IMG/VR virus record: IMGVR_UViG_3300021962_000066
Coordinates: 1 to 64,000 of that record
Source of the DNA: a virus
DNA: 64,000 nt
Strand: one strand, 5' to 3'
In this document: positions 21,831 through 56,580 of the stretch, piece after piece
Numbering within the stretch: position 1 is the stretch's first letter
Layout of the letters: each line of letters starts with the position of its first letter
The notes under the pieces: generated by a model
The model's database searches: none
The model's input: the letters and a program-made list of their open reading frames with translations, nothing else
What the model was told of the DNA's origin: nothing
Position numbers and translations under genes: made by a program

Positions 21831-22286
21831 ATGCAGGCTCAATCGAAACATATTATCACTCACGAGACGTTTTTACAGTATGTAGATAAGATCTGTGAAT
21901 CCGTGAGAGGCTACAAGTTTGATACTATAATTGGATTAGGTAGAGGCGGCTATGTACCTAGTGTCTATATTTCTCATAGACTAGGTGTTAGTAAAGTAAT
22001 ATCTCTCGTAGCCAAGTCCTATACTGACGACAACACCAGAGGCAAGCTAAATTTTCTACAGGAACCAGTACTAACAGATAAGTGTAAGAGAGTACTGATA
22101 GTTGACGACATTGTCGATTCAGGAACTACCTTCAGTTTTGTACGAGATTGGCTCACCGCTAACTACCCTACAACAGAGGCGATCTTTGTATCTGTTGTTT
22201 ATAAAAAGCAGCTAATATTTCCTGATGTAATATGCGGTTACGTAGCGCCGTCTGACCAGTGGATCGTCTTTCCTTGGGAGATCTAA
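21831..22286 (+). CDS. Type I phosphoribosyltransferase
   Basis: 151 residues with the PRPP-binding loop VLIVDDIVDSGTTF (about 86-99), IIGLGRGGYVPS (34-45) and the usual hood-less small purine/xanthine-type length. Transfers phosphoribose to a base or acts in reverse; which base cannot be told. Nucleotide salvage genes are unusual inside a late virion unit, so a link to the nucleotide-sugar cluster 2 kb on is worth testing but unproven. Confidence 0.85.
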   Translation: MQAQSKHIITHETFLQYVDKICESVRGYKFDTIIGLGRGGYVPSVYISHRLGVSKVISLVAKSYTDDNTRGKLNFLQEPVLTDKCKRVLIVDDIVDSGTTFSFVRDWLTANYPTTEAIFVSVVYKKQLIFPDVICGYVAPSDQWIVFPWEI

Positions 22287-22364: not shown

Positions 22365-23639
22365 ATGGCAACAAGCACATCTACGTTCGCTCTTAATATT
22401 TCTGCCATTAGGGCATTATGCCTAGGAGTTTCGGGCATTACACCCCCCGGGCTAAAGCATGGGTATGCAGCGCCTACTGTCACTGACGGTATATCGGGCG
22501 ATTTCTTTTTTAATATAGCGTCTCTTTCATCATATCAGTTATATGGTCCGAAGACGACAACTTGGCCGACCTCGGCAATAACGCTAACAACTTTAAACTA
22601 TCTCACATCCTATACGAACACTCAACTTAATGGCCTCACAGGTGGTAATACTCTGGCAATAGCGTGCTTACAGGATGGTGGAAGTTCTGGCTACGGCTTA
22701 TTGAGCTCACTTAGGATATTGAATCAAGGTGGTGCTGCTGCTAATATAGGTTCACTAAGAATAAATACTAATTCAGGTCCGGGCATGCAGCTCCCGCATA
22801 TCATCTGCAGTGCATTTGGTGTTGAAAATTTTATAGTCGATAGTGATGGCTCATTATCAGCTAACAATATTACGACTGATGGTACGGTTACAGTAAACCC
22901 TAGGTACCAGACAACGGGAGGAGTAAATCGTTTATTCGGTGGCAATATATTCGGTACTAATGAGTGTTTTGTTTCTGCGGAAAAGGTTAGTATTTCTATC
23001 GGTGAGGCTACATCCGCGTACGATGCAAACTGTCTTGTAGGTGGCGGTAATTCGATTGCAACCGGTCAGTATTCATGCGCATTAGGTTGGGCTAATCAAG
23101 CAATTGGCCAGGGAACCTTTATTACCGGTCTTGAATCTAGAGCAGTAGGTAATCTGTCCATAGTACTCGGCGCCTCGGCCGTTGGTTATCATAGTGGTAC
23201 TTTTGTCTGGAACGGTGGTCAAGGAGCTAATATTAGCTCGTCCGTATACCCTGTCGTATACGGACGAGCAGGTACATCAGGCCACACTCAGGCCGTATTC
23301 TACTCTGCCTCTGGTACGCATATCGGTCGTAGACTTAGTGTTAATAATTTTCAAACAGAGACATTTAATATTACCGATCCTGTGCGTGGAACCACTGAGA
23401 CTGTGATACTAACCGTTCCTATCACAGGTAGTAATGATGCCACGTTTACTGTTAATGGTACCATATCGTCGAATAACACTACAACAGCTACAGGTTACTT
23501 CGATGGTAATAACGCACAGTTACTAACAGGCAGACAGACTGCACCGTCACCGTTAGTCGGCGGATCAACACTAAGTGATACAATTGCAGCATTTAATTTA
23601 TTACTGAGTAGTTTAACAGCTCACGGTTTAGTTAGATAA
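22365..23639 (+). CDS. Tail fibre/adhesin with YadA-like head repeats
   Basis: 424 residues. Residues 225-275 carry the repeat pattern of trimeric adhesin heads (NSIATGQYSCALGWANQAIG, then GTFITGLESRAVGNLSIVLG), each turn with A-x-G-x-x-S. The rest is Gly/Thr/Ser-rich fibre-type sequence. Probably a trimeric receptor-binding or head fibre. Its 3' end meets the biosynthetic operon tail to tail (19 bp overlap). Confidence 0.75.
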   Translation: MATSTSTFALNISAIRALCLGVSGITPPGLKHGYAAPTVTDGISGDFFFNIASLSSYQLYGPKTTTWPTSAITLTTLNYLTSYTNTQLNGLTGGNTLAIACLQDGGSSGYGLLSSLRILNQGGAAANIGSLRINTNSGPGMQLPHIICSAFGVENFIVDSDGSLSANNITTDGTVTVNPRYQTTGGVNRLFGGNIFGTNECFVSAEKVSISIGEATSAYDANCLVGGGNSIATGQYSCALGWANQAIGQGTFITGLESRAVGNLSIVLGASAVGYHSGTFVWNGGQGANISSSVYPVVYGRAGTSGHTQAVFYSASGTHIGRRLSVNNFQTETFNITDPVRGTTETVILTVPITGSNDATFTVNGTISSNNTTTATGYFDGNNAQLLTGRQTAPSPLVGGSTLSDTIAAFNLLLSSLTAHGLVR

Positions 23640-24250
23640 TGACATCGATGGCGCGATTTACCGATCGCACCCCTACCATAATGGTTCTGCAAAAATACTC
23701 CCGATACGTCAGTTACTTTTAATGGTAGCAGTACTACATCTGCAAAGTTTTTCAAATGTACGAGATCATCATCACTCGCGCATTTTCCAATCTCGGGGTA
23801 TATCTTACAGGTATCTAACCACCACAGCTGAAAGAATCCTAACGCCGTTCTGCCCTCGAATCCATGTTCTACATAATCATTAACGCTAGTACCGTCTACT
23901 AACGTTCTACTACATCCATATAAAATATCTTTATGTAAGTTAACTAGTTTATCTCTGTAATTAACTGGTAATAAAATATCACTATCTAACTGTAGTATCC
24001 ACCCCGTGTCTTTCAGTCTTTGTATCCCCTCATTAACTGCTTTACCTTTTGCAAAGTTTGCGCCGTTATAATATATGTCTCTAGATAGAATATATTGTAG
24101 CTGATTTTTCTCACATAATTGTATTGTCTTTTTATCAGACTGATGAGTAACGATAATCCAATCGTCTAGTAGATCTCTATTAGGTAGTGTCTTCTCTAGG
24201 TAATCGCTATAGTCTATACATACGGTTACTGCTGATATTTTCATAGCCAC
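23621..24250 (-). CDS. GT2-like glycosyltransferase, last gene of the operon
   Basis: 209 residues of GT-A fold: strand-loop SAVTVCIDYSDYL at the start, then WIIVTHQSDKKT, FAKGKAVNEGI (substrate loop) and the metal-binding WILQLDSDILL (about 84-94). Related to glycosyltransferases that read sugar nucleotides. Downstream-most gene of the leftward operon, overlapping the deacetylase gene by 10 bp. Confidence 0.75.
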   Translation of the reverse strand: MAMKISAVTVCIDYSDYLEKTLPNRDLLDDWIIVTHQSDKKTIQLCEKNQLQYILSRDIYYNGANFAKGKAVNEGIQRLKDTGWILQLDSDILLPVNYRDKLVNLHKDILYGCSRTLVDGTSVNDYVEHGFEGRTALGFFQLWWLDTCKIYPEIGKCASDDDLVHLKNFADVVLLPLKVTDVSGVFLQNHYGRGAIGKSRHRCHYLTKP

Positions 24251-24789
24251 TCTACAGGAATTCTCTTCTTCGAATAAAATTTTGATATACCATTGCCCTG
24301 TAGGATTCTCATATAGAGCTCATCTGCGTAATTATACGGGAAACAAAACCTATCAGGTACACTGCCTAGTTGTAGCTCAAATGTATTAATCATATTTACG
24401 GTATCCGATAGATACATACGAATCTTTTCAACCATTAATGTATTCTTCCGTAGTTGGAGATGATTATGACCATGACCACCAATAAAACATTGAGGAGAAT
24501 TATATAACGATCTAATCTGTTCCCAGTTCATATAATTACTGACATCGCCTACGCTAAAGAATCGATCATGCGCATCAGTGCACGAAACGCAGTCAGAGTT
24601 CTGTTGGGTATCTTCTAACGCGACAATGTTAGTTGATATAAAAAAGATCTTTGGTGTGTTTATTTTTAGTAATTCGTTTCGAAACTTATACTGAGTATAC
24701 AATCCATCATCAAAGGTAAGTATATAATTCTGCAGAGGAAGTTTTAAAAACTCTTCCTTCATTTCATGAATCATTAGTACTTGTTTCAC
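24241..24789 (-). CDS. Polysaccharide deacetylase (NodB/CE4-like)
   Basis: Contains LTFDDGL (about 23-29) with the catalytic/metal Asp pair, GGHGHNHLQL (about 100-109) as the metal-binding His motif, and FCFPYN as the arginine/Pro motif position. At 182 residues it is a minimal CE4 domain. Expected to remove N-acetyl groups from a sugar or glycan. Overlaps the PIG-L gene by 4 bp, placing two different deacetylases side by side. Confidence 0.8.
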   Translation of the reverse strand: MKQVLMIHEMKEEFLKLPLQNYILTFDDGLYTQYKFRNELLKINTPKIFFISTNIVALEDTQQNSDCVSCTDAHDRFFSVGDVSNYMNWEQIRSLYNSPQCFIGGHGHNHLQLRKNTLMVEKIRMYLSDTVNMINTFELQLGSVPDRFCFPYNYADELYMRILQGNGISKFYSKKRIPVEWL

Positions 24790-25436
24790 GAAATTGTAAA
24801 TATAGGTTTAAAGCATTCTGCTTTATCGTATCCACACAGACTTCCGATATAACTGTCGCGGTGAGCAATCATGTCTATACTTATAGGGTCAGGTGACTCT
24901 CTTAATTCTGTATCGTAGTTTTTAATACATCGAAGTTTTATATTATGTACTGATGTAATATCATTAAAGGTCGTGAACTCCTCTAATGACTTACCCCATT
25001 CGGTACTACCGGGAATCGAAAAACAGAGTAATTCCTTTATAGAGCTATTATATCTCGGTCTAGTAGTAACTCTAACAGCTTCATATACGATTCTATGGTC
25101 TCTGTGTATATCGTACTGATAGTGCGAATAGATAACTTCAGGTTTATATGAACGTATCTCACTATCAATGTGTGACCGTATATCAGCAAACGGGACAGTA
25201 TCGAGTGAAACGTCGGAGTAATCTAATCTTATAAAATCATCTATGTTTAGTATATTACAGTTTTTTTTTGCGGCCACCTGTCTGCTTCCTGCAACATGTT
25301 CATGCCCTGGTCGATTACCTTTACAGAACGTTAGCAGTCGAATCTTATGACCTTGCTGTTTAAGCTTGGCTACAGTACCGCCCATACCAATTTCCATATC
25401 ATCCAGATGAGCTGTTATAATTAAAATATTTTTCAC
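24786..25436 (-). CDS. PIG-L/LmbE-type N-deacetylase
   Basis: 216 residues with AHLDDMEIG (9-17), the zinc motif A-H-x-D-D-x-E, and HYQYDIHRDHR (about 103-113), the second zinc-ligand region. Family members deacetylate GlcNAc-containing small molecules or glycolipids, including precursors in aminoglycoside pathways. Overlaps both neighbours by 4 bp. Confidence 0.88.
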   Translation of the reverse strand: MKNILIITAHLDDMEIGMGGTVAKLKQQGHKIRLLTFCKGNRPGHEHVAGSRQVAAKKNCNILNIDDFIRLDYSDVSLDTVPFADIRSHIDSEIRSYKPEVIYSHYQYDIHRDHRIVYEAVRVTTRPRYNSSIKELLCFSIPGSTEWGKSLEEFTTFNDITSVHNIKLRCIKNYDTELRESPDPISIDMIAHRDSYIGSLCGYDKAECFKPIFTIS

Positions 25437-26392
25437 GTATAGAAAGATACACCGCTGTTTATAATTTCCTGCATAGAAATTGTTGGTGTGTAATATTTTC
25501 TAAGTTCCAGAATATTAGGTATTCTGTAACCTATATCAATAAAGTCGTTTTTAAATGAATTACTCAGATCAGAATATACAATTTCTGATTTACTATTTAC
25601 AGCCTTTAAAACGCTATTTGCTAATTGATTAATCGTTGTAATGTTATTGGGGTTGCCTATGTTGTATATATTCCCGTAACATGACTCCGTACAACTAAGA
25701 ATATACAATGCATTAATAGTGTCTCTAACATCGCAAAACGATCTAGACTGTTCACCGGTGCCGTATACCTCAATCGGCTTATTACGTAGTGAGGCTTCAA
25801 TAAAATTCGGTAAAACAGCGCCGCCCTTACTGCATTGACCGTACCCTGTCACATTAAATGGTCTTACTATTATAGACGGGGTATCGTAACTCCTTAAAAG
25901 AAATTCCGATGTCAGTTTACATGACGAGTAACACCATCTACTTGTTCTGGAGGTTCCAATTGTAAGATTGTCAGACTCCACACAATTAGTTGAACTACCA
26001 TATATCTCACTCGTACTGGTGTATATAATCCTCTTATTAGACTTGGCAGCTGCCTCGAATACATTTGCATTTATATTGAGTATGCTTTTAATTGCATGAT
26101 TTGGGTTATTGTCTACAGTTCTAACTCCTACTGTTGATGCAAAGTGATATATAGTATCTTGATCTTTAAAAAAAGAATTGAGGGTTGTAGCAGACGTTTT
26201 AGACAGGTCGACTTTAATAATCTTATACCGATTACGAGCGTGGGACGTCTCCATTAATGTCTGTGATATCAACTTACTACGATGCCCTATATTATCTAAT
26301 ATTGTAATATAGTCAGTACCCTCTGTCAGTAGCTTTTTGAGTAAGGAGGCGCCTATAAAACCTAATCCACCTGTTATTAGTACTTTTTTCAT
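25433..26392 (-). CDS. NAD-dependent sugar epimerase/dehydratase (extended SDR)
   Basis: Full-length 319-residue extended SDR: ITGGLGFIGASL (6-17), the catalytic YSSCK motif (about 147-151) with upstream TSTSEIYG, and RPFNVTGYGQ, all typical for UDP-glucose 4-epimerase/dTDP-glucose 4,6-dehydratase relatives. Acts on a nucleotide sugar in the cytoplasm. Starts 3 bp after the upstream SDR stop. Confidence 0.9.
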   Translation of the reverse strand: MKKVLITGGLGFIGASLLKKLLTEGTDYITILDNIGHRSKLISQTLMETSHARNRYKIIKVDLSKTSATTLNSFFKDQDTIYHFASTVGVRTVDNNPNHAIKSILNINANVFEAAAKSNKRIIYTSTSEIYGSSTNCVESDNLTIGTSRTSRWCYSSCKLTSEFLLRSYDTPSIIVRPFNVTGYGQCSKGGAVLPNFIEASLRNKPIEVYGTGEQSRSFCDVRDTINALYILSCTESCYGNIYNIGNPNNITTINQLANSVLKAVNSKSEIVYSDLSNSFKNDFIDIGYRIPNILELRKYYTPTISMQEIINSGVSFYT

Positions 26393-26395
26393 ATG

Positions 26396-26992
26396 TCAGC
26401 AAAATAACTCCTTTATATCTCTGATAGAGTTTGACTGCAACGATGTATAGTCTATAGTGGACTCAATACTGTGTAAACTGTTTATTGTTTGACTAATGAA
26501 ACTATCAATAGTAATATAACTTATAATATTAGACATATCACTGTCACTCACTAAATTTTGTCGTATTTTACGCATTAAACCCTTTGTTCTATGGGTACCA
26601 TACACTCGCGGTATTCGTAATATCATATACTTATTGTAACGCTTTTTAATGTAAACCTCCATAGCGAACTTACACGATTCATAAAGATTTGTAATCTTAT
26701 TAACTCCCTCCGTACTAGCAAATATAAATGTAGCATGATTCTCTATTGCAATATTCAATAGATTGTCTGTACCTATAACAATAGTGCTAACTGTTCGCTC
26801 TATATCTTTAAATTCAAATGTATCGCTAGGAGAGGCTAAATGCATGACCATGTCAATATTACTATATTGACGTCGATCTCTAACATCGCCTTCATACTCC
26901 ACCACGGTATAGATAGCGGAGAGTGCCGGTATAAGCGATGAGCCTAAAAAGCCTTTACTGCCTGTTATTAGTATGCGAGGTTTTCCATTCAC
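26396..26992 (-). CDS. Short NAD-dependent SDR (epimerase/reductase-like)
   Basis: 198 residues: ILITGSKGFLGSSL (6-19), MVMHLASPSD, ASTEGVN and YESCK (about 113-117) as the YxxxK pair. The C-terminal substrate domain is much shorter than in the 319-aa neighbour, so it may reduce or epimerise a small substrate or partner with that enzyme. Overlaps the transketolase-like gene by 38 bp. Confidence 0.8.
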   Translation of the reverse strand: MNGKPRILITGSKGFLGSSLIPALSAIYTVVEYEGDVRDRRQYSNIDMVMHLASPSDTFEFKDIERTVSTIVIGTDNLLNIAIENHATFIFASTEGVNKITNLYESCKFAMEVYIKKRYNKYMILRIPRVYGTHRTKGLMRKIRQNLVSDSDMSNIISYITIDSFISQTINSLHSIESTIDYTSLQSNSIRDIKELFC

Positions 26993-27458
26993 AATTATCC
27001 CAACCGAGTCTTATGAGACTTGGTTCCTTTCCTCTGATGCAGTTAGTAAGCGTACTCAGAAATGATTGACGATCGTGAGGTTCATGTAGAGGTATGCCCA
27101 GCGCTGCCATAAGTTGCGCGTCATCGTCTAATATATGACCCTTACCGCCGGCTTTATAACAACCGTTAGCACCTGCGTTAATAAACGTAACGCTTCTACC
27201 GAAGTTTACAACACTGAACTTTATCTGTTCGTATCCGCGGTGTATTACAAACCCTGCAACCCCATACACTATAACTGACTTACCTTGACTAGCTAGCCCA
27301 CCAGCAATGTTCACAAGGTTCGTCTCCTGCACTCCTACATTTATACAACGCTCTGGAAACCGCGACTTAAATCGCTTAAAGCTCCACATATCTGCATGTA
27401 AGAAATACAGATTCGGATTATTGTATTTACTAAGAAATTTGTCTAAGGTATTTCTCAT
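26955..27458 (-). CDS. Transketolase-like pyrimidine-binding subunit (truncated form)
   Basis: 167 residues matching the Pyr domain of transketolase/DXS-type enzymes: FPERCINVGVQETNLVNIAGG (conserved Glu that activates thiamine diphosphate), YGVAGFVIHRGYEQIK and INAGANGCYKAGGKGH. It stops after this domain; the usual third domain is missing. Should work together with the PP subunit just upstream (29 bp overlap). Confidence 0.82.
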   Translation of the reverse strand: MRNTLDKFLSKYNNPNLYFLHADMWSFKRFKSRFPERCINVGVQETNLVNIAGGLASQGKSVIVYGVAGFVIHRGYEQIKFSVVNFGRSVTFINAGANGCYKAGGKGHILDDDAQLMAALGIPLHEPHDRQSFLSTLTNCIRGKEPSLIRLGWDNCEWKTSHTNNRQ

Positions 27459-28143
27459 CTACTTTTTTATAATGCCAGGTTATAGGGTCTGCTTCCATAA
27501 ATGGGACACCGTACCCTTTAATAGTCTTACAAAAGAATACAGTCGGTTTACCGTATTCAGCTCTAAACTCTTTATTGAGCTTAAGGTAATCATGCCCGTC
27601 AACGACAGTAGTAGCCCACCCATTATTGCTAAAGAAGTTAATTACCGGCTCTATAGGTAGAATGTCGCACACTTTACCTGTAACCTGTTGGTTGTTGTAA
27701 TCTACAGTAACAACTATATTTGCCAATTTCTTATGACCGATATACTGTATAGCCTCTAGAGTGCTGCCCATCTGCAATGTAGCATCAGAGAGATTGACCC
27801 ACACTTTCTGAGATGTTGTCATAGCAATGCCACTTGCAACACCTAGAGCATTCCCCATCGTCTCTTCACCGAAATCAACAAAGTCTATTTCAGCGTGTTT
27901 AACTCCAGGAGATAGATTCTCTATATGCTTGATATAGTTAAGTCTTTTCCAGATTAGATAATAGGTTTGTGAACCAAATGGCTTACCTAGAACGATTTTG
28001 TGCTTATATGGTACAACATGCTTCTCTGTAAACAGAACATCCACATAAGTGAGCATAGATAGAGCTGACGGTATGTGCGTCAGCTGCTGCTTGATAGAAT
28101 ACTGTAAAACAGTATTTGGTAAAATAGGATCAACTATATCCAT
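27430..28143 (-). CDS. Transketolase-like thiamine-diphosphate (PP) subunit
   Basis: 237 residues. Region 85-175 carries the ThDP/Mg site in the degenerate form LSDATLQMGSTLEAIQYIG ... VVTVDYNNQQV, and IKGYGVPF as in transketolase N-terminal halves. With the following gene it makes a split two-subunit ThDP enzyme that could transfer a two-carbon unit to an aldose or make a branched sugar. Overlaps the halogenase gene by 14 bp. Confidence 0.82.
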   Translation of the reverse strand: MDIVDPILPNTVLQYSIKQQLTHIPSALSMLTYVDVLFTEKHVVPYKHKIVLGKPFGSQTYYLIWKRLNYIKHIENLSPGVKHAEIDFVDFGEETMGNALGVASGIAMTTSQKVWVNLSDATLQMGSTLEAIQYIGHKKLANIVVTVDYNNQQVTGKVCDILPIEPVINFFSNNGWATTVVDGHDYLKLNKEFRAEYGKPTVFFCKTIKGYGVPFMEADPITWHYKKVDEKYLRQIS

Positions 28144-29389
28144 AATCTTTTAACCATATAGGATATGGTGTACCCCTCAAGACATCAAGTTCTCGTGCTG
28201 CTATTTCTACGAGATTCCTAGGACTAGGTTCCTTTACACCTAGCCCTGTTAATAAACTATTCCAACTCCATTCATCAAATATAGCAGACTCTGAATATAA
28301 GTTAACATCCATCTGTTTATACTGATCCCAATACTCATTACTTCTTTTTGCGTATTTATAGTGTGCTAGTATAAAACTAACTATCGAATTGTATTCCTTA
28401 TTGATCGTACGGTTATATTCATCTGCTGTAATCTTCTCTTCAATATAGTCGCATAATAGCTCAATACTGAACACACTCATAAACAGACTAGTACTTTCCA
28501 TCGGCTCGACAAAGCTTGATGATAGACCTACGGCAGCAACTGGCGGCACTCCTTCAACTATATGTGTCTCACATCTACCAGTTGCGAACTTAATTTTTTT
28601 AATCTTACTCTCATCTATCTTACTGACAGTAGATTGCTCTATAAAGTCTATAAATTCCTGTCGCACGTTGAAATTATCTGAATGCACATATCCAAATGTC
28701 ATCTCGTTTCGTAAAAACAAGTTCCATATCCACCCATATTTCATAGCGGTTGCAATTGAATAGGGTCGTATTTGATTTAGGGAGTTAGTATAACGGTGTC
28801 TATAAATGTAGGCAGAGTTGTTAGGAATTAACTGCTCTATAGATACAAAGTTATTATCAGGCTCTACTGCTCTGAGAATAGTCTTTGACAGGCCTGTACA
28901 ATCTACTACAAGATCTGCAGTACTCTTCACATCATTAAAGCTAACTTCCTTTTTTATAATAGAGAGATTTTTATAAACCTGCAATTTAGATTCTATTAGA
29001 GTTGTTAGAAGGTTAACATTAAAGTGGAATCCTATATTACTCTCCGGATGTAAAACGCCAGCTGTTACACGTTGCTGTCTGCAATGCTCATCATACGACG
29101 GAAATGCATGGAAAAACTTATCTCTTACACCGGAAAACTCATCAAATCTAAATCCAAATTTTATAGTACCGTTACAATGATCGAGAATGTCTTCTGACGA
29201 TATACCTATTTTTCTTAGAAAAATATGTACGTCAGGTACAGTTGCTTCGCCTACACCTATAGGGTTATTAACCTCCGGGTATATCCATCTGATGCTCTTA
29301 TCTGGAAATGCTTTACATAAAAATGCAACCGCTAGGTAGCCTGCTGTACCAGCACCGACAACAGTTAGGTTTTTATACTCTCGGATCAT
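28130..29389 (-). CDS. Flavin-dependent (tryptophan-) halogenase family protein
   Basis: 419 residues. FAD site VGAGTAGYLA (11-20), GVGEATVPD (45-53), and Lys77 in GTIKFGFRF aligns with the catalytic lysine of tryptophan halogenases. The family WxWxIP motif is present as GWIWNLF (last two positions changed), followed by FGYVHSD. It ends with typical VEPMESTSLF and C-terminal helices. A halogenase homologue from a cyanophage has been shown active as a halogenase, so activity is plausible, but oxygenase chemistry or another substrate is possible. Overlaps the radical SAM gene by 4 bp. Confidence 0.85.
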   Translation of the reverse strand: MIREYKNLTVVGAGTAGYLAVAFLCKAFPDKSIRWIYPEVNNPIGVGEATVPDVHIFLRKIGISSEDILDHCNGTIKFGFRFDEFSGVRDKFFHAFPSYDEHCRQQRVTAGVLHPESNIGFHFNVNLLTTLIESKLQVYKNLSIIKKEVSFNDVKSTADLVVDCTGLSKTILRAVEPDNNFVSIEQLIPNNSAYIYRHRYTNSLNQIRPYSIATAMKYGWIWNLFLRNEMTFGYVHSDNFNVRQEFIDFIEQSTVSKIDESKIKKIKFATGRCETHIVEGVPPVAAVGLSSSFVEPMESTSLFMSVFSIELLCDYIEEKITADEYNRTINKEYNSIVSFILAHYKYAKRSNEYWDQYKQMDVNLYSESAIFDEWSWNSLLTGLGVKEPSPRNLVEIAARELDVLRGTPYPIWLKDYGYS

Positions 29390-30357
29390 TTTACCTCAAC
29401 TCTCTTGTACTCTAAATCAAAAACGCATTTTTTAAATGGACATATTACATCTGCAACTGTTGTAAAATAATTGTCGTAATTATACGGAGTATTAATGTTG
29501 AATAAAGGTTTAGCAAAAGAGAATATCTCGCTGATACATCTGTAACAATTACCATCCCAATCGATTATTATTCGATCCTTAGCTACGCTGCACTTATAAC
29601 CTAAAAAGTTAGTCTTATTATTTAGCCATAGCTCAAATTTTGATACACTACTAACAGTGTATGGGTCTGTTTGGTATTTAATAGTTTTATCGAAAAAAAG
29701 GCTATGTATAGCTAATTTAGAAATGTCTTCAGTTTTTTGCAGGTAGGCTAATTCACCTACATCACTCTCAACACGGTTCACCTTGCAATCAATAAGCGGA
29801 GATATCTCACAATACTCTATACCGAGTATAGAAACAGCTGTGTTAAAGCTGCCCATAACACATTTACGACTATTGTACATAAATGTAATCTTACCAAGGA
29901 GATTAAGATTCTTAATCATAATACACTTTCTAAGAAATAAAGGCAGCTCAGTTTGAGTGTTGTGAAAGCTGCAGGATATTTTAAAGATATTACTATACTT
30001 CGCATATCTGCTGCAAAATGAAGAGAACCAATCTTCTGATCGTGACAAGTTAGTTAGAAAATCAATGGAGATATTAATCCTATTAGCAGTACAATAGGCT
30101 AGCACACTATCCAAGAAACTGTTTAAATGGGTGTAAAGAGTCGGCTCGCCTCCGTATATAAATAAGTAGATCGGTCTCTTAATGACTTTAGATATTGAGC
30201 CGATCATAGAGCAGACGTTATCTGCATTCAGCTGAGTAATAGGATTCTTATTTTGATGTAGATCGGTACAGTAATAGCAGTCGTAATTACATTTAGTTGT
30301 AAGTCTAACTTCTAAATTAAAGCGTTGCTGTTCCTCTCCTAGCGATACGATCTTTAT
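29386..30357 (-). CDS. Radical SAM protein, probable AUA start
   Basis: The first ATG (30,207) would lose the catalytic site. The frame is open to 30,366, and upstream residues include KCNYDCYYC, the CxxxCxxC cluster motif, plus later YLFIYGGEPTLY. No ATG, GTG or TTG lies between the motif and the in-frame stop. The likeliest start is ATA at 30,357, which overlaps the upstream stop as ATAA and follows AAGGAGAGG. This gives 323 residues, the size of the other four. C-terminal cysteines (CYRC, CPFKKC) suggest an auxiliary cluster. Confidence 0.8.
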   Translation of the reverse strand: MKIVSLGEEQQRFNLEVRLTTKCNYDCYYCTDLHQNKNPITQLNADNVCSMIGSISKVIKRPIYLFIYGGEPTLYTHLNSFLDSVLAYCTANRINISIDFLTNLSRSEDWFSSFCSRYAKYSNIFKISCSFHNTQTELPLFLRKCIMIKNLNLLGKITFMYNSRKCVMGSFNTAVSILGIEYCEISPLIDCKVNRVESDVGELAYLQKTEDISKLAIHSLFFDKTIKYQTDPYTVSSVSKFELWLNNKTNFLGYKCSVAKDRIIIDWDGNCYRCISEIFSFAKPLFNINTPYNYDNYFTTVADVICPFKKCVFDLEYKRVEVK

Positions 30358-31271
30358 AACCTCTCCTTATAGTATGAGTATTTTATATCACAGCAGCATC
30401 CTGTTTCTACATCGCAAATAACCTGCTTATCAATATTACTTCCGAGAGGCGTCATAGGTGTATGAGTACAGTGGTTTACTATTCGACCATCTGTCTTTAT
30501 ATACCACATTAACGGTGTGCATCGAAAACCCTTAAAAAATCTTAAGCCATGTTTTTGTATGTCATACTCATTTAAATTAGTCATCTTACCGTTGATATTA
30601 AACGGGATATTACCTGTAATACTTTTAGGATTTTCTGCAATTACTGTTTTAAATGTTTCAAAAAACTTGTCAGTATATTTAGGAGACCAGCCTGCTCTCG
30701 TTGGAATTAGAAAATTAAACCCAACTGCAACACCTCGCTCTTTTAAGGTATTAATGAGACTGATAGTGCCTTCCCAATGCTCCTCAGTGTCTGACAGATT
30801 TATATTAGGAAAAATAGTTATATGCTTTGCATCTTTTATAGCAATACACTTATCTATAAAGACTGGCTTAAAGTATTCGGGATGGTAAGAGGGTGTTATT
30901 TGCAGCTTATTACACTCAGGTATATCAAATTGCTGATAATATTCTAATGATCTAGAAAAATTTGTAACAAGTTCTATCTTAAGACAATTTTTAATTGCAT
31001 TTAGTCCCTTTACAATTTCAACCAAATCTGGATGCAATGTAGGTTCCCCGCCTAGCAACTCAACGTTAAACTTAGGTATGCGGTTAAGCGACAACTGCTT
31101 TACGACCTGTTTATACGACTGCAGCTTAGTAGTATCAATCTGCTTCTTCAAAAAGTGCTCTGCACTACAATACGAGCACCTGTAATTACACACGTCAACA
31201 AGGTCCCACGAAAATGTAACCAGCTTACAATTGGGGTCGCCAGCATGCTTAACGTCGTCTATTGTCATCAC
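30354..31271 (-). CDS. Radical SAM protein with C-terminal Cys cluster (305 aa)
   Basis: CxxxCxxC at residues 28-35 (VCNYRCSYC), LLGGEPTLHP (GGE SAM-binding motif, about 72-81), and C-terminal FRCTPLMWYIKTDGRIVNHC ... CDVETGCCCD, a SPASM/twitch-like set of cysteines. Catalyses radical chemistry on an unknown substrate. Sits 7 bp after the 323-aa paralogue and has strong sequence similarity to it in the core. Confidence 0.9.
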   Translation of the reverse strand: MMTIDDVKHAGDPNCKLVTFSWDLVDVCNYRCSYCSAEHFLKKQIDTTKLQSYKQVVKQLSLNRIPKFNVELLGGEPTLHPDLVEIVKGLNAIKNCLKIELVTNFSRSLEYYQQFDIPECNKLQITPSYHPEYFKPVFIDKCIAIKDAKHITIFPNINLSDTEEHWEGTISLINTLKERGVAVGFNFLIPTRAGWSPKYTDKFFETFKTVIAENPKSITGNIPFNINGKMTNLNEYDIQKHGLRFFKGFRCTPLMWYIKTDGRIVNHCTHTPMTPLGSNIDKQVICDVETGCCCDIKYSYYKERL

Positions 31272-31278
31272 TTATTAC

Positions 31279-32250
31279 TTATTGAGTTTCCGAGTTATTC
31301 AATAATACTACTTTTTCTTTAAAAATCTTTAACAAGCCGTCACAATTGCAGCTACCGTGTGGGCATTTGACAGGCGTAATTGCTGTAATCTTTTTAAAGT
31401 AAAACGGGTCAGTTACAAGATTAACAGGTTGATCAAAGCATACTCTATGAACGACACCATCGTATGAGATCTCGTAATTATTATTCCAGCAACTCCATCC
31501 CTTGAACCCCGTTAGTTCACGTTTAAAGAGATTGTAGTCATTGTACATAACCTTATCGCCCTTAACATCTTCAAAGGTGAAGTAGTTAGGATATGCGTTA
31601 AATCGTTTAAACTCATTATAAAATTCTTCGCTATAGTTCTCAGGCACATGTACGTCGCCGTTAGCATATAGGAAGTGTGGGTGTATCTCGATACCGCTCA
31701 TCTCTTCAAGACTATCTACAAATTTATGAATCTTAGGCCATAATTCCTTTTTTGGATTTAGCATTACATTCACCTTACATCTAAACCCCTTGTCCTTAAT
31801 AACTCTAATATTGTCCAGTAACCGTTTAAAGTCTTCTCCGTATTTGGATTCGTATTCAGTATGGAAACTCCACAAGAAGTACATGTTGTTATAGTACTTG
31901 TGCTTTCTAAAAAAATCCGTATCTTTGGATCCATTTGTAGTAATATACAATCTACCGTCCGGGTGTTTAGAAATAGCAGCATGACAGCCTTCTATTAACT
32001 CCTCGTAGCGAGGGTGGAGAGTAGGCTCTCCGCCTAAGAGACCCAAGAACACTGGTAGGGTTGCTCTACCGATACTGTTGATGACTAGTTGCTGCTTATC
32101 CCACCTATCTATCCTGCCCCACTCATCGCCATACTCCTTCATCGCATAACAATATGAACATTTAAAGTTACACTGGGTACTTACATCCCAATGAATATAT
32201 AGTCGTTGTACCTTATGACCGGAGTCATATTGCTTGATAAAATCTGTCAT
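31279..32250 (-). CDS. Radical SAM protein with C-terminal Cys cluster (323 aa)
   Basis: QCNFKCSYCYA (Cys27, 31, 34), LGLLGGEPTLHPRYEEL, and C-terminal SCWNNNYEISYDGVVHRVC plus KCPHGSCNCDG. Same architecture as the downstream 305-aa protein: core TIM-type barrel, then an auxiliary cluster domain. Its start overlaps the GT2 gene by 26 bp. Confidence 0.9.
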   Translation of the reverse strand: MTDFIKQYDSGHKVQRLYIHWDVSTQCNFKCSYCYAMKEYGDEWGRIDRWDKQQLVINSIGRATLPVFLGLLGGEPTLHPRYEELIEGCHAAISKHPDGRLYITTNGSKDTDFFRKHKYYNNMYFLWSFHTEYESKYGEDFKRLLDNIRVIKDKGFRCKVNVMLNPKKELWPKIHKFVDSLEEMSGIEIHPHFLYANGDVHVPENYSEEFYNEFKRFNAYPNYFTFEDVKGDKVMYNDYNLFKRELTGFKGWSCWNNNYEISYDGVVHRVCFDQPVNLVTDPFYFKKITAITPVKCPHGSCNCDGLLKIFKEKVVLLNNSETQ

Positions 32251-32884
32251 CTTTATTATAGGTATAGAAACTTATATTATCACCACCGCTTGTGGTCTGT
32301 ACCCAGCGCTCACCAATAATATACTTAATAGTTGCCGGTTGAAGGGAATGGAAAAGCTCTATGTCGTTATTAATATTATTACCGACCGGAAACGACTTAA
32401 TTAATGATTTTCTGAACAGTATCTGACCGAGTTGAAAGTCACGTGGGGTATATTCTTTCAGGAATTTCGATAAGTCAGTCACTTCAAATAAATGTCGGTT
32501 TGACTTAGTGACACGCTTATATGCACAATAAGGCCCGATCTCAGCTATCAGCGGTTCCGAGACATATTCCAGATAGTTAACATCCGACTCGAAGTCTAAA
32601 TTATCAAAGAAGTTTCTTTTTATGTAGTCATCATCTTCTAAGAAATACACGAACTCACATAGGGACTGATCAAACAGAAACCTATATAAATTGGAAAGGT
32701 CACTATCTCGTTTGTAGTGATATGATATAGGTATTGCAGTATTATAAATTTCGTCGATATCATTAGAGTCGTTGTTTACTATGACTTCGACACCGGGCGG
32801 CACTTTGCAGGCTAATATACTTTCAATACACCGCTTAAACAGCTTTGGTCTATTGTGGGTTAATATTAAAATGCTAAGTTTCAT
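32225..32884 (-). CDS. GT2 family glycosyltransferase (219 aa)
   Basis: Begins MKLSILILTHNRPKLFKRCI, the GT2 opening strand and loop, with VEVIVNNDSND and the metal-binding YFLEDDDYIK (about 81-90). Transfers a sugar from a nucleotide donor. Lies between two radical SAM genes, overlapping by 4 and 26 bp. Confidence 0.85.
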   Translation of the reverse strand: MKLSILILTHNRPKLFKRCIESILACKVPPGVEVIVNNDSNDIDEIYNTAIPISYHYKRDSDLSNLYRFLFDQSLCEFVYFLEDDDYIKRNFFDNLDFESDVNYLEYVSEPLIAEIGPYCAYKRVTKSNRHLFEVTDLSKFLKEYTPRDFQLGQILFRKSLIKSFPVGNNINNDIELFHSLQPATIKYIIGERWVQTTSGGDNISFYTYNKDDRFYQAI

Positions 32885-33888
32885 TTTCTATATTTTACGT
32901 GATCGAGGCCATCATAGCATGTAGTATTGATGCAAACTACATCTGACTTCAAGAATGCATTAACATCAATATCGGCTAAGTTTGCCCCGCGTATTTGTTT
33001 ATTATAGTCATCATTACAGTGATAAACCTGTAAAGTATGGTCAATAACTATATTCTTTTTGCCACACTCACACCACATATGTTTAAATTTCGTATGTATT
33101 TTGCTAGCCTTTACCTCGCTGTAGTTTTTCACAGTACCATCAATATTAAAGTTCCAGCCTTCTTCGAAATATTCTTTAAAGTGTGGATATTTTCTGGTAA
33201 AGTATCTATACTCTAAACTCTTACCATTATCATCTCCTCTTAAATAGTCATCAGTTAGGTGCACCTTATAATCTGGTAAGTTGAGAAAAGTTAAATTTTC
33301 TATCTCAGTAAATTTCAGCTTTATCTTGCCGGGGAATCTACTATTTAAAAGATTAAACTCAGATAGAAATTGATCCTCTCTACCGATTTCTGTACTAAAG
33401 AAGCACAACCCCATAGCATTGTATTTGTTGCTTAGATACAGTTTTTTTGAAAACTCATCGACCGACTGCTTACCTATATGATAGCTACTGCAAATGTCAA
33501 TTTTTGCCGTACAGGTAGTAGCTGTTTGTAGAAATACCTCTAAACGGTCATAAGCAATACTTAAATTTGTCTGGGTTTGTAGGAAGAGTTCTCTATCGGA
33601 AAATATCTTTATAAGTTCAAAGTGTAAATGTTCCCAATATCTGCTTAGCGTTGGCTCTCCGCCATAGAAGTAGAAAAACAACCGCCTTTTGCTCACGGGT
33701 ATTTGAGACAGTTTAGAAATTACTGCTGCACAGTCTGCCTCAGACCACTGCGTAGACGTGTTGTTATACTCATTACAGAACCAGCATGCGTGATTACACT
33801 TGAATGATGGTTTTAAAGTGACTTTCAGATCATACTCAGGGAATTGAGCAGTCTTTATTATCTCAAACTTATGTATTAAAGCAGACAT
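32881..33888 (-). CDS. Radical SAM protein with C-terminal Cys cluster (335 aa)
   Basis: KCNHACWFCNE (Cys31, 35, 38), FYFYGGEPTLSRYW, and C-terminal MWCECGKK ... VYHCNDDYN ... VCINTTCYDG. It shares the core and the cysteine layout with its paralogues, but the sequences have diverged enough to expect different substrates or positions of attack. Overlaps the upstream gene by 20 bp. Confidence 0.9.
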   Translation of the reverse strand: MSALIHKFEIIKTAQFPEYDLKVTLKPSFKCNHACWFCNEYNNTSTQWSEADCAAVISKLSQIPVSKRRLFFYFYGGEPTLSRYWEHLHFELIKIFSDRELFLQTQTNLSIAYDRLEVFLQTATTCTAKIDICSSYHIGKQSVDEFSKKLYLSNKYNAMGLCFFSTEIGREDQFLSEFNLLNSRFPGKIKLKFTEIENLTFLNLPDYKVHLTDDYLRGDDNGKSLEYRYFTRKYPHFKEYFEEGWNFNIDGTVKNYSEVKASKIHTKFKHMWCECGKKNIVIDHTLQVYHCNDDYNKQIRGANLADIDVNAFLKSDVVCINTTCYDGLDHVKYRK

Positions 33889-34828
33889 TCTGTATAATAT
33901 TAATTATGCTATCATCGCTCTGAAGCGATACCGAACTAATGTCTGTGTCTATATCAAGCTTTCGATATTTTAACCCGGTGTCTATATTTAAATATGCCTC
34001 GTCGATGTTATAATAGATAACATCTTTACCGTAATGCTTACACTCAGCAATAAATCTCGGGCTACAGTCGAACATTGTAGTCGTCGGAGTATATATGTAT
34101 GTTGAAAACTTACTAAACAGATCTAAAACAGGTGCAGATAGAAAACTAACCTCAGTAATATGCTTAAACTTATCGGTGTATGCTTCAGGGAATGATGTTA
34201 TAGCTATAAATTTTTTAAATTGAGGGTAAAGTTGAGACATCTGACAAAGGATTTCGTCAGATATGGCTCTACAGTTCTTAGTACAGTATAGTAATGCAGT
34301 ATCGACCTCTGCTGATACTGCAGACTTAAGCTTAGAGAAGAGTATTTTTTTCCTGTAGTCTATTGCAATATTAATATCTTTTGGCGTGCATTTATATACC
34401 CGGTTATCCTGTAATAGGGTTATATTATTATACCGCAGGTCATGAAACGTATCTAAACGTGAACACTTAAACGCCAACACGTTATCGAATATTAGTTTTA
34501 CACCGAAGTGTTGAAAGTTTCTATTTAAGCCGCCATCAACGAAGAGAATATTCTTGCCCTTTAATATTTTTGGTCTAGATGCAAAGTAAGTATTATTCCT
34601 TATATCGCTAACCTCTCTGCTTGTTACATTATACTTATCAGTAATGATTGACTCAATTTCACTCCAAGTGAAGTCTTCTCCTATGAATATGCCAGTTTTA
34701 TATCGCTGTGAAAGTATGAAGTAGTAGTCAAAAATTTCATAAATATGCCCGCATATTCCGTGATTATTGTCAGGAGGCCAGGTAACTGATAAAAATATAT
34801 CATAGTTTGCATCTAATACTTTAATCAT
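33869..34828 (-). CDS. Putative glycosyltransferase-like protein (319 aa)
   Basis: No named family recognised with certainty. The two-halved alpha/beta layout, the GKNILFVDGGLN segment and the C-terminal SPRFIAECKHYGKDVIYYN, which resembles the donor-binding end of GT-B glycosyltransferases, make a GT-B enzyme plausible. Overlaps by 8 and 20 bp with radical SAM genes on both sides. Confidence 0.5.
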   Translation of the reverse strand: MIKVLDANYDIFLSVTWPPDNNHGICGHIYEIFDYYFILSQRYKTGIFIGEDFTWSEIESIITDKYNVTSREVSDIRNNTYFASRPKILKGKNILFVDGGLNRNFQHFGVKLIFDNVLAFKCSRLDTFHDLRYNNITLLQDNRVYKCTPKDINIAIDYRKKILFSKLKSAVSAEVDTALLYCTKNCRAISDEILCQMSQLYPQFKKFIAITSFPEAYTDKFKHITEVSFLSAPVLDLFSKFSTYIYTPTTTMFDCSPRFIAECKHYGKDVIYYNIDEAYLNIDTGLKYRKLDIDTDISSVSLQSDDSIINIIQNVCFNT

Positions 34829-35846
34829 ACATACCGGATCTATAGAAGTTAACTCGTCTTATCTTCTTGCCCGAGACGGGGTATACCGGTGCATCTAGCT
34901 TCTTTTCAATCCCGTCACAAATATAGTAAAATTTACAGGTAATACAACTGTTAGGCTTTTTATAATCATTTGATCGATCTTTTGCAGCAACATCATGCGC
35001 TATTAAAATCTTCTCATTCTCAGTATACGCTTTAGATACATCTAGCGTACCACTATACATCTCTTTATTCCAATCATACCTATCGTATATGTGTTGATAC
35101 TGATTACATACGTACTTTTCGTAGCCAATCATATAGCAATACGGGGTATATCGGACATTAATAGTCTTTATATCGTCTTTTATAATGTCGATACACTTCT
35201 TAATATGGGTTGTGAGGGTTAAATAGTCAGCCTGTTCAAAATTTTTATTATCCTCCCAATAGTTAAGAGTAAGAAAATTAATCTCAAGAGGCTTAATTGA
35301 TAATAGAAGCTTACTGTACTCTTCCAACCCTTCGCAGTTCTTTTGATAAACTGTGCAATTTATTCTGACAATAATTTTATGTTTTTTAGCATTGTCGATT
35401 GCTTGGAGTATCTTAATATAAGAACCCTTTCTATCAGTAATCTGATCGTGTACCTGTTCGTTAAATCCATGGAGACTAAATAGTATCTCTTTTAGTCCGT
35501 GTTCTTTCGATTTCTTAAGAAAGGCTTCATTAGCAAATTTATAGCCGTTACTAAGACAGCTAATATGTTCAAATCTTTGATTACAGTAATCTAGGAGCTC
35601 AAACCAATCTTTATGTACACTTGACTCACCACCTGAAAGATCGACCTCAGTAATACCATATCGGTGTAGATAATCGACCCTGTCCTTAATTACCGATAGT
35701 GGGGTATTTACATCAAGACGGTCCTTATAGTAGCAAAACTCGCAATTATAATTGCAGAGTGTACCTGTATCTAATTTTGCTCTGTTACACCGTTTTGTAT
35801 CAAAATCTATATCTATGCCGTGAGTACTAATGACGTTAAGATTCAT
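34821..35846 (-). CDS. Radical SAM protein, most divergent of the five (341 aa)
   Basis: The ATG at 35,846 is preferred to a TTG nine bases earlier. TLCNYNCEFCYYK (Cys31, 35, 38), VDLSGGESSVHKDW, and C-terminal SCITCKFYYICDG (CxxCx6C), a SPASM-like end. It lacks the GGEPTL form of the others, so it is a separate branch. Among known radical SAM enzymes this looks nearest to SPASM/twitch-type; substrate unknown. Overlaps the upstream gene by 11 bp. Confidence 0.88.
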   Translation of the reverse strand: MNLNVISTHGIDIDFDTKRCNRAKLDTGTLCNYNCEFCYYKDRLDVNTPLSVIKDRVDYLHRYGITEVDLSGGESSVHKDWFELLDYCNQRFEHISCLSNGYKFANEAFLKKSKEHGLKEILFSLHGFNEQVHDQITDRKGSYIKILQAIDNAKKHKIIVRINCTVYQKNCEGLEEYSKLLLSIKPLEINFLTLNYWEDNKNFEQADYLTLTTHIKKCIDIIKDDIKTINVRYTPYCYMIGYEKYVCNQYQHIYDRYDWNKEMYSGTLDVSKAYTENEKILIAHDVAAKDRSNDYKKPNSCITCKFYYICDGIEKKLDAPVYPVSGKKIRRVNFYRSGMYD

Positions 35847-36549
35847 TGCAAACAAAATCCGGGGCAGGCAATAAAAGCGAAGGCCAGAATGAGGTTAATG
35901 CTTTAACGGTTTTGAATTGGGTTAGATCAACTTCTTGAGGCACATCTCGAAACATTTGCTTGATTATAGCTATATCAGCAATATCGCTCGACAATGAACT
36001 AGTCAATGTCTCCTTCTCTAGGTTATCTAACTCCTGTAGATTCTTATTTCGATGCTCACGTATTAACTTCATCCAGCCTACTCGACACTGATTTAAAGTA
36101 GTCTCGTCAACTGATTCACCCTCTATATCTCGCTTATCATCTATGCCTAGATGCTTGCAGAGTATTAGCGGGGTTCTGTAAGCATTCGGATTTGTTCCGA
36201 ATATATGATTAAACGTATCAATCTGAAATAATCCGGTGTATAGCTTAGCCTCAGTATACCACCTAGTGAAGATCTGTTCGCTCTTTTCGAAAAATTCAGG
36301 GGATTGTTTAGAGTAGAATTTAGCTATGTCCTCACCGAGTAGAGGTACGGTTTGACCACATGACATAAGTATACCGATATTATCACTATTGACCTCCACC
36401 TCACGCTGTAAAATTTCATCAAAAAATCCGTTATTTGAGTTGTTGCCCTTCTTGACGTATATAAAGCGCTCTATATGGTTAGTTCGAACACCAATGACGC
36501 AGTGGGTATTATCATTAACGCCTCTTGCCCAGTTATGAATTGTATGCAT
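35836..36549 (-). CDS. Unknown protein leading the biosynthetic operon (237 aa)
   Basis: First gene of the overlapping operon. Unrecognised; residues 60-150 are helical with several Trp/Tyr, and the C-terminus reads SFWPSLLLPAPDFVCNES, a compact hydrophobic end with a Pro/Cys tail. Could be an enzyme, a carrier or the modified substrate itself; none is shown. Starts 3 bp after the structural gene upstream. Confidence 0.6.
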   Translation of the reverse strand: MHTIHNWARGVNDNTHCVIGVRTNHIERFIYVKKGNNSNNGFFDEILQREVEVNSDNIGILMSCGQTVPLLGEDIAKFYSKQSPEFFEKSEQIFTRWYTEAKLYTGLFQIDTFNHIFGTNPNAYRTPLILCKHLGIDDKRDIEGESVDETTLNQCRVGWMKLIREHRNKNLQELDNLEKETLTSSLSSDIADIAIIKQMFRDVPQEVDLTQFKTVKALTSFWPSLLLPAPDFVCNES

Positions 36550-36552
36550 ATA

Positions 36553-37131
36553 CTAAGATCTTTGTGTACCGTCAATATTAACCCTCTTACCAGTCGCTCC
36601 GCCGTATGGTACCTCGATGGTAGTGGCTTCTTCCGCTCCGGTTTTATTGTCTCTAATCGTAACTGAGTAGGTACCAGCATTTAAAGCAGATTTAGTAAAG
36701 ACGGTTTGTGTATCGGGGTTTATGGTAACCGCCGGATCAGATCCTACTGTGATGACGGCCAGACGTGCACTAGCAAACTGTGCAAACGAAGTTTGCGATA
36801 TAGTGATTACAATCGTCCCATTATTAAGAGTTTTGTATTTCGATGGGGTTTCCGGCGTCGACGTGATCAGCGCCTTCAGTATCTGAGCGCCTTTAAACTC
36901 ACCAAAACTAAACGGTTCACCCGGAGTTAAATTTTCAACTTCACCATATTGAACAAACAAATCGTTAATTTCAGAGATCTTTGAATTAGATCTATTTGTT
37001 TCCCTACTAGCGAGCGAACTTACATCGCTGCCCTGTAACGTCGCATTTAAACTACGCGTAGAGGTGGCCGCAGCACCTACGGAGATGGGTGCTGCGGCGT
37101 CATTTGGTATTGCTGTACCGGCATGTGGCAT
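36553..37131 (-). CDS. Probable virion protein with Ig-like C-terminus (192 aa)
   Basis: N-terminal half is Ala/Ser/Asn-rich and helical; residues 85-185 have an alternating beta pattern ending AGTYSVTIRDNKTG and TTIEVPYGG, like a phage Ig-like or carboxypeptidase-regulatory-type domain. Probably a tail or fibre component, upstream of the biosynthetic operon. Confidence 0.6.
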   Translation of the reverse strand: MPHAGTAIPNDAAAPISVGAAATSTRSLNATLQGSDVSSLASRETNRSNSKISEINDLFVQYGEVENLTPGEPFSFGEFKGAQILKALITSTPETPSKYKTLNNGTIVITISQTSFAQFASARLAVITVGSDPAVTINPDTQTVFTKSALNAGTYSVTIRDNKTGAEEATTIEVPYGGATGKRVNIDGTQRS

Positions 37132-56019: not shown

Positions 56020-56580
56020 ATGAATAGCGATAGTCAACTTATCTGGGAGGCTTACACAACTGCAAACGAAGGCATCCTCAACACAGCAGGCCACATTGCA
56101 TTGGATGTAGGCGGAGCAGTAGCTGGTCCGATAGGTGGCTTAATCGGTAGCGCAACTGGCGCGGCTGTCGGTGAGACTATAGGAGCAGGTTTTGATCTTA
56201 CAAACGCGATATGGTATGCAACGGAGGGCGAGTATCTAAATGCTGCTTTATCGGTAATTTCGTTGATACCTGTAGTAGGCGATGCTGTCGGTAAAGGTGG
56301 CAGGCTTGCAATTTATCTTGCAAAAGCAGCTAAGACAGTTAAACCTCTGGGAGCTGCCGGTAGAGTAGCAGCTAAAGGTATTATTAAAGGCAGGCGGGCT
56401 GTTGTAACAGTAAGTCCTAAGATAGCAAAAATACAGCAGGTTATTAAAACTAACAAAGTTCTCATAGACGGAGCTCTCGACCAAGCTAGTAAAAATGAAA
56501 AACTCCGGCCGTACGTAGGAAAAATAAAATCCGCTTTACAAGCATTTACAGGGGAATCGGTACATACTTTGGAAAAATGA
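56020..56580 (+). CDS. Internal-protein candidate, LIWEAY peptide and pre-toxin-like hydrophobic core (186 aa)
   Basis: MNSDSQLIWEAYTTANEG, then a Gly-rich hydrophobic stretch (AVAGPIGGLIGSATGAAVG), then NAIWYATEGEYLNAALSVIS followed by LIPVVGDAVGKGG, which resembles the segment that precedes toxin domains in polymorphic toxins, and a basic helical C-terminus. Likely packaged and membrane-active on injection. It is a near copy of the gene at 56,725. Confidence 0.65.
   Translation: MNSDSQLIWEAYTTANEGILNTAGHIALDVGGAVAGPIGGLIGSATGAAVGETIGAGFDLTNAIWYATEGEYLNAALSVISLIPVVGDAVGKGGRLAIYLAKAAKTVKPLGAAGRVAAKGIIKGRRAVVTVSPKIAKIQQVIKTNKVLIDGALDQASKNEKLRPYVGKIKSALQAFTGESVHTLEK

Follow-up and report, generated by a model that had tools for sequence, protein, structure and literature searches.

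What does a T4-like phage build with five radical SAM (rSAM) enzymes encoded among glycosyltransferases (GTs), deacetylases and a flavin-halogenase homologue? The question is raised by an operon at positions 23621-36549 of the stretch analysed here, hereafter the window, which comprises bases 1-64000 of an 83,783-bp IMG/VR virus record carrying T4-like sheath, terminase and baseplate-wedge genes. We know of no phage for which multi-step radical chemistry in the service of its own particle has been demonstrated. The reading we favour, to which we give about an even chance of being right, is that the operon encodes a cytoplasmic pathway by which the phage decorates a tail or fibre protein of its virion with an unusual glycan, amino-bearing or branched.

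All 16 open reading frames (ORFs) from 36549 down to 23621 run leftward, and neighbours overlap by 4-38 bp or lie 3-7 bp apart, a layout confirming the prediction of a single operon in the preliminary description of this DNA, which had counted 15 genes instead of 16. The predicted products are five rSAM proteins, one GT-B and two GT2-like enzymes, two halves of a thiamine diphosphate (ThDP) enzyme, a flavin-halogenase homologue, two short-chain dehydrogenases/reductases (SDRs), a PIG-L and a NodB deacetylase, and a 237-aa protein without Pfam match (Table 1). The operon follows a virion-like gene at a distance of 3 bp and shares the strand of the baseplate genes; at its 3' end the last gene overlaps a convergent fibre-like gene by 19 bp. 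The place of the virion-like gene is occupied by similar-sized proteins in 12 related contigs. Other phages whose baseplate is related (39%) have no such operon at this position, from which we take it to be an accessory module.

A first scan with rSAM3 gave three contigs (L006, L007 and L008) in which both gene content and gene order were those of the window, and profile searches identified 57 viral loci for rSAM1 and 27 for the ThDP N-half, 63 contigs combined. The rSAM1 loci collapsed at 90% identity into 38 lineages, all lineage counts being lower bounds as some contigs are fragments. Among these lineages we found the GT-B in 35, making it the most constant partner of rSAM1, a GT2 (GT2a, g04) in 28, the ThDP halves in 27 and 26, rSAM3 in 26, SDR2 and PIG-L in 25 each, SDR1 in 24, NodB in 23, a U32-like protein in 22, the halogenase in 14 and an amidinotransferase in 6. 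The order ThDP N-half, ThDP pyrimidine half, SDR2, SDR1, PIG-L, NodB agreed in 274 of the 286 pairwise comparisons, and with few exceptions the cassette families have retained their catalytic residues. Because families, order and catalytic residues are conserved, chance is excluded, and by these sequence comparisons the cassette is a real conserved phage system. Its occurrence in 38 rSAM1 lineages, and that of its families in Campylobacter phages, shows that the set is not confined to the window phage.

The ends of the cassette are constant and its middle is exchangeable. Between the ThDP halves lies the halogenase in 23 contigs and the U32-like protein in 4, and in most others there is nothing and the halves overlap; the middle of other lineages holds an amidinotransferase, a GT and other rSAMs. 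By analogy, this arrangement is typical of surface-glycan loci, and across the 38 lineages it is the pattern of loci apparently pressed to vary a surface structure. The U32-like protein (293 aa, CxWNGGRINR; L006:10849-11730, L008:12488-13369), which can stand in for the halogenase, has barely detectable similarity to Peptidase_U32. Another protein, of 330-370 aa with an RNPS...K/RYEDIL pattern, stands at the 5' end of some cassettes (L028:7926-9032, L008:6413-7501 and relatives); it looks like a sulfotransferase, an identity that we do not claim as no Pfam model matched. Two cassette-bearing contigs have been binned with bacteria, L099 (MEQL01000015.1) with Bdellovibrionales and L100 (NZIV01000084.1) with Neomarinimicrobiota. 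These two, the stronger of the rSAM1 matches in bacterial bins, are probably phage contigs; their binning may hint at hosts or be a misplacement of phage DNA.

A carbohydrate pathway, as the preliminary description had proposed, is supported by the GTs, deacetylases and SDRs, by a UDP-glucose-dehydrogenase-like gene in relatives and by the company kept by bacterial relatives of rSAM1. The enzyme noted earlier as a possible GT-B (g02) was modelled by AlphaFold (pLDDT 93.7) as a GT-B fold, with Foldseek matches at about 1e-4 to Anabaena HepE, a Rickettsia GT and tll1591. Both GT2 enzymes were recovered with Pfam, that at 32225-32884 above the cut-off and that at 23621-24250 just below. The PIG-L, NodB and two SDR assignments also held in the Pfam scan, and comparison of residues indicated that the metal-binding motifs of both deacetylases and the YxxxK of both SDRs are kept. 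Both SDRs are relatives of UDP-glucuronate decarboxylase or dTDP-glucose dehydratase; SDR1 (g12) has its nearest sequence matches among UDP-glucuronate decarboxylases and allied enzymes of nucleotide-sugar metabolism. In the ThDP pair, Asp120 and Asn150 of the g09 family are invariant (32/32), as is the catalytic Glu45 of the g10 family (31/31). Of the split transketolase described earlier, the ThDP motifs on two chains stand, and the C-terminal domain is absent: g10 has 167 aa and matches the pyrimidine domain only. For this reason we call the pair a two-component ThDP enzyme and not a canonical transketolase.

The bacterial relatives of rSAM1 (27-34% identity) stand, as judged from their neighbours, in surface-glycan loci: in Thiocapsa beside UDP-GlcNAc 2-epimerase, GT4 and GDSL genes, in an Ignavibacteria bin with a heptose-type PfkB kinase and cytidylyltransferase, SIS, B12-rSAM and GT2 genes, and in Nitrosomonas ureae with heparinase II/III. 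The same neighbourhoods, the exchangeable middle and the resemblance of the enzyme classes to O-antigen and capsule loci would also suit a pathway that remodels the host surface during infection (lipopolysaccharide, capsule or flagellar glycan), for instance to block superinfection. We consider this improbable, as the cassettes lack a recognisable membrane protein and are positioned among late virion genes. No transmembrane-like segment was found in the proteins of the window operon, and in 26 cassettes the search for hydrophobic ORFs gave one in 426, a 112-aa ORF without assigned family. Priming transferase (Bac_transf) and flippase (Polysacc_synt) were absent from 19 phage records, in a search with positive controls.

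The link to virion genes suggested earlier was upheld by the 3-bp distance to the virion-like gene and by the position of the cassettes downstream of tail or fibre genes: of 71 proteins encoded just upstream, 17 carry a Peptidase_S74 domain and 2 carry Mtd_N. A soluble pathway next to late genes suggests the modification, in the cytoplasm, of a protein that the phage itself makes. T4-like phages modify their DNA with sugars, and the GTs and SDRs, together with a ThyX gene adjoining NodB in Campylobacter phage CP220, could serve to hypermodify DNA bases. This is very unlikely, given that just 5 of the 18 cassette phages scanned have a member of the thymidylate synthase/hydroxymethylase family, which six contigs of 181-214 kb lack, that the cassette sits with virion genes, and that Campylobacter phages are reported to replace guanosine by deoxyinosine or deazaguanosine (PMC8713573). 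Tet_JBP was found in none of the 19 phage records, in a scan in which no positive control matched. The two deacetylases alone could be taken for enzymes degrading host surface polysaccharide, as Carvalho et al. suggested for those of phage IBB_35 (PMC3322345). For the operon this is scarcely credible, the gene set being biosynthetic (GTs, SDRs, ThDP enzyme) and the deacetylases lacking a hydrophobic segment like an export signal.

All five CxxxCxxC motifs of the preliminary description were located (CNYNCEFC, CNHACWFC, CNFKCSYC, CNYRCSYC and CNYDCYYC), and Pfam Radical_SAM matched four of the five proteins. The Pfam scan of rSAM5 did not include its N-terminus; with the N-terminus included, many NCBIfam rSAM models match. 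The rSAM5 frame, open over 29386-30366, has no ATG, GTG or TTG start that would include the CNYDCYYC motif; translation probably begins at an ATA (30357-30355) that lies five bases after an AAGGAG and shares the sequence ATAA with the stop codon of the preceding gene. Homologues in L006 and L007, 43-45% identical, have an ATG at nearly the same place. The ATA, within the segment 30353-30370 (minus strand), may be a genuine but rare start or reflect an error in the sequence. Comparison of residues within the rSAM families showed conservation of the three motif cysteines and of C-terminal cysteines for an auxiliary cluster. The rSAM2 and rSAM3 families and the homologues of rSAM4 have four or five such extra conserved cysteines, and a Twitch/SPASM-like auxiliary cluster is predicted for them. 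The nearest folds to the AlphaFold model of rSAM3 are MoaA, SuiB, anSME and EpeE, followed by BtrN and SpeY. As identities for the rSAM proteins, viperin, MoaA and QueE were rejected, their NCBIfam scores all being below cut-off.

Aminocyclitol pathways combine rSAM, PIG-L, SDR, GT and amidinotransferase enzymes. The fold match to BtrN and the amidinotransferase in 6 of the 38 lineages might thus point to a soluble small molecule, aminoglycoside- or cofactor-like, active in the infected cell, a possibility that includes the metabolic help at low oxygen suggested by Timms et al. for the 11-12 rSAM proteins of Campylobacter phages (PMC2853527). We hold this to be decidedly improbable, since the operon carries no exporter or resistance gene and the linkage to virion genes is constant.

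The assignment of g08 to the Trp-halogenase family was borne out by Pfam. Its GxGxxG and the catalytic Lys77 and Glu298 are retained, residues conserved throughout the family (Gly 16/16, Lys 16/16, Glu 15/15), and GWIWNLF stands where GWxWxIP is expected. The window copy has thus lost the IP of the WxWxIP signature, of which the Pro is present in 14 of 15 sequences covering the region. We therefore class g08 as a halogenase homologue only, for which halogenation of a substrate is at most a prediction. Because the flavin halogenases characterised so far act on aromatic rings (PMC8407142), the halogenated sugar of the preliminary description is doubtful. A single-protein scan of viral sequences with the window halogenase gave no match.

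In a sister group, the cassette is preceded by one to four tandem fibre proteins, with SPASM-like rSAM genes on their far side; these proteins carry an almost invariant C-terminal Cys motif, of the type CLCNCNYCTCNCNYCTCNCNYxCTCNCNY or CICNSDCSC...CGCNY, directly before an S74 chaperone domain. Of the 29 contigs with this motif, 28 have an rSAM match, some of them weak, and 21 were already in the cassette set; the halogenase accompanies the Tyr-containing motif (17 with, 3 without, the lineages not being independent). In CP220 a 141-aa protein with 27 Cys stands two genes before rSAM1. Together with the likeness of the rSAM3 fold to SuiB, anSME and EpeE, these observations speak for a pathway whose rSAMs, joined by the halogenase in cassettes that have one, take a virion polypeptide as their main substrate and change it by Cys, Tyr or backbone chemistry in the manner of ribosomally synthesised and post-translationally modified peptides, the sugar enzymes decorating the modified peptide. 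We nevertheless judge it unlikely, yet a serious contender, as rival or as partner of the glycan reading. No Cys-motif protein was found in the window contig; the operon, whose gaps do not exceed 7 bp and which has no small ORF, leaves no room for a precursor peptide; a pure peptide pathway needs no deacetylases, SDRs, ThDP enzyme or GTs; and the bacterial rSAM1 relatives in glycan loci speak against it. An S74 or second WPxLLP protein in the window contig and a Cys-motif protein in isolate phages were likewise looked for and not found. A combined proposal, which we rate as rather unlikely, is that rSAMs, halogenase and GTs jointly mature a virion protein, such that an exchangeable cassette would give the tails a natural-product-like glycopeptide, variable in a serotype-like way. 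Its target would be the S74-chaperoned, Cys/Tyr-rich tail in the sister group and another virion protein in the window clade.

For the favoured glycan on a tail or fibre protein, we infer the order of steps, product, attachment site and benefit from the families, gene order, catalytic residues, solubility and virion neighbourhood observed. SDR1, with the UDP-glucose-dehydrogenase-like enzyme in relatives, would produce a keto or decarboxylated nucleotide sugar, on which the two-part ThDP enzyme would place a two-carbon unit, or which it would otherwise rearrange. The GT-B and GT2 enzymes would then assemble a short glycan on the protein, PIG-L and NodB would strip N-acetyl groups to expose amines, and the Twitch-type rSAMs would act on C-H positions by oxidation, epimerisation or deoxygenation. 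A further substituent may be added in some cassettes by an exchangeable enzyme (the halogenase homologue, working on an aromatic or enolic moiety; the amidinotransferase; or the U32-like protein). The benefit may be variation of host range or surface, or protection of the virion.

Several observations weigh against this glycan pathway. None of these virions has been observed to carry a glycan, and several of the phage records searched are fragments. The window operon lacks a complete nucleotide-sugar route, for which reason precursors from the host are assumed. A flavin halogenase requires an aromatic substrate, which a plain glycan does not offer. MoaA and the peptide maturases are the nearest folds to rSAM3, the sugar enzymes BtrN and SpeY ranking lower, and the genes of the Campylobacter phages are scattered and do not all adjoin fibre genes.

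New here is the recognition of the gene set as a conserved, exchangeable, rSAM-rich biosynthetic phage cassette. If a glycan or glycopeptide is indeed built on the virion, phage-host recognition would gain a previously unseen layer, and the cassette would be a fresh source of radical SAM enzymes for sugars or peptides. The 11-12 rSAM genes of Campylobacter phages, which have lacked an explanation since 2010, would then acquire a role open to testing.

Table 1. Genes of the operon and associated virion proteins (window positions unless a contig is named).
Feature	Position	Strand	Evidence and remarks
g00, 237 aa, first operon gene; C-terminal motif ...DIADI..IKQMF...FWPSLLLPAP	35836..36549	-	homologues at same position in 13 related contigs; no Pfam match
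g01 rSAM1, cassette hallmark	34821..35855	-	Pfam Radical_SAM 1e-21; 57 viral loci
g02 predicted GT-B fold glycosyltransferase, 319 aa	33869..34828	-	AlphaFold and Foldseek
g03 rSAM2, four conserved C-terminal Cys (predicted Twitch-like auxiliary cluster)	32881..33888	-	Pfam 7e-7
g04 GT2-family glycosyltransferase	32225..32884	-	Pfam Glycos_transf_2, 25.5 bits (cut-off 23.3)
g05 rSAM3, conserved C-terminal Cys	31279..32250	-	Pfam 5e-13; AlphaFold pLDDT 91.6
g06 rSAM4	30354..31271	-	Pfam 1e-10; MoaA is nearest solved sequence
g07 rSAM5, probable non-canonical ATA start	29386..30357	-	CNYDCYYC motif; NCBIfam rSAM matches
g08 flavin-dependent halogenase homologue	28130..29389	-	Pfam Trp_halogenase 3e-56; PDB Trp halogenases, VirX1
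g09 ThDP-binding half (transketolase N-like)	27430..28143	-	Pfam Transketolase_N; PDB 6yak 3e-25
g10 ThDP pyrimidine-domain half	26955..27458	-	Pfam Transket_pyr; PDB 6yaj 9e-12
g11 short SDR, 198 aa, YxxxK kept	26396..26992	-	Pfam Epimerase
g12 nucleotide-sugar SDR (UDP-glucuronate decarboxylase / 4,6-dehydratase type)	25433..26392	-	Pfam Epimerase 6e-38; PDB 8vr2, UDP-glucuronate decarboxylases
g13 PIG-L/LmbE-type de-N-acetylase, metal motifs kept	24786..25436	-	Pfam PIG-L 3e-26
g14 NodB-type polysaccharide deacetylase, metal motifs kept	24241..24789	-	Pfam Polysacc_deac_1 1e-5
g15 GT2-like glycosyltransferase, last gene	23621..24250	-	Pfam GT2 3e-4, 21.3 bits (cut-off 23.3); homologues at same position in L072, L074
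Virion-like protein, candidate co-transcribed target, 3 bp upstream of operon	36553..37131	-	
Cys-motif virion proteins	L028:6870-7520, L030:6816-7604, L148:4721-7285, L165:2766-3464, about 20 other loci		

Elsewhere in the window, a phosphoribosyltransferase gene (21831-22286, plus strand; Pfam 1e-16) lies beside the fibre-like gene, and CP220 has a phosphoribosyltransferase too. Upstream of the operon, a virion-region protein (41053-43233, minus strand) contains a PKD domain (Pfam 9e-10). Two adjoining genes at 56020-56580 and 56725-57324 (plus strand) are an apparent tandem duplication with near-identical antisense frames.

Among known enzymes, the Twitch/SPASM aminocyclitol rSAMs BtrN and SpeY share with the cassette proteins the rSAM core, the conserved C-terminal Cys and the fold match to rSAM3, but BtrN and SpeY are not orthologues, and MoaA and the peptide maturases score better. 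The viral flavin-dependent halogenases (VirX1 of cyanophage Syn10, PrnA-like) belong to the same superfamily as g08 and have the catalytic Lys and Glu in common with it (PMC8407142), whereas the cassette enzyme is about 110 residues shorter and has its place between the ThDP halves, with LF for the IP of WxWxIP in the window copy. The split transketolase of Carboxydothermus is the best PDB match for both g09 (N-terminal component, 6yak) and g10 (C-terminal chain, 6yaj) and shares their ThDP motifs, but the second half in the phage lacks the C-terminal domain, and a halogenase or U32-like gene can separate the halves. The structure-model alignment was drawn from the window and IMG/VR loci only. 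Bacterial O-antigen, capsule and exopolysaccharide loci resemble the cassette in their GTs, SDRs, deacetylases and exchangeable middle between constant ends; the phage cassette differs in lacking a flippase, priming transferase or other membrane protein and in being embedded among virion genes.

The closest relatives are the Campylobacter Firehammerviruses (CP220, CPt10, CP21 and IBB_35), and the literature gave no description of a phage rSAM, glycan or halogenase cassette beyond the Campylobacter phage papers, of which neither Timms et al. nor Carvalho et al. join the gene set into one pathway. These phages share the same families, with rSAM1 46-50% identical (CP220 47%) and ThDP halves 31-33%, and have many rSAMs together with GTs; CP21 and IBB_35 also have a halogenase, 34-36% identical. 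In the genome of CP220, examined as overlapping pieces, we found eleven rSAM genes, adjacent SDR1, PIG-L and NodB genes, and SDR2, both ThDP halves, the GT-B (27%) and a UDP-glucose dehydrogenase, the cassette families being scattered over the genome. A 141-aa protein with 26-27 Cys in an xCxxC ladder is encoded two genes upstream of rSAM1 in CPt10 (L061:8747-9172), CP220 (L067:8759-9184) and CP21 (L063:8767-9192). An exchangeable block is likewise present, by which CP220 and CPt10 differ (PMC2853527). In contrast to the one tight operon of the window phage, the genes of the Firehammerviruses are spread round the genome, and an amidinotransferase-type block stands where the window has its middle.

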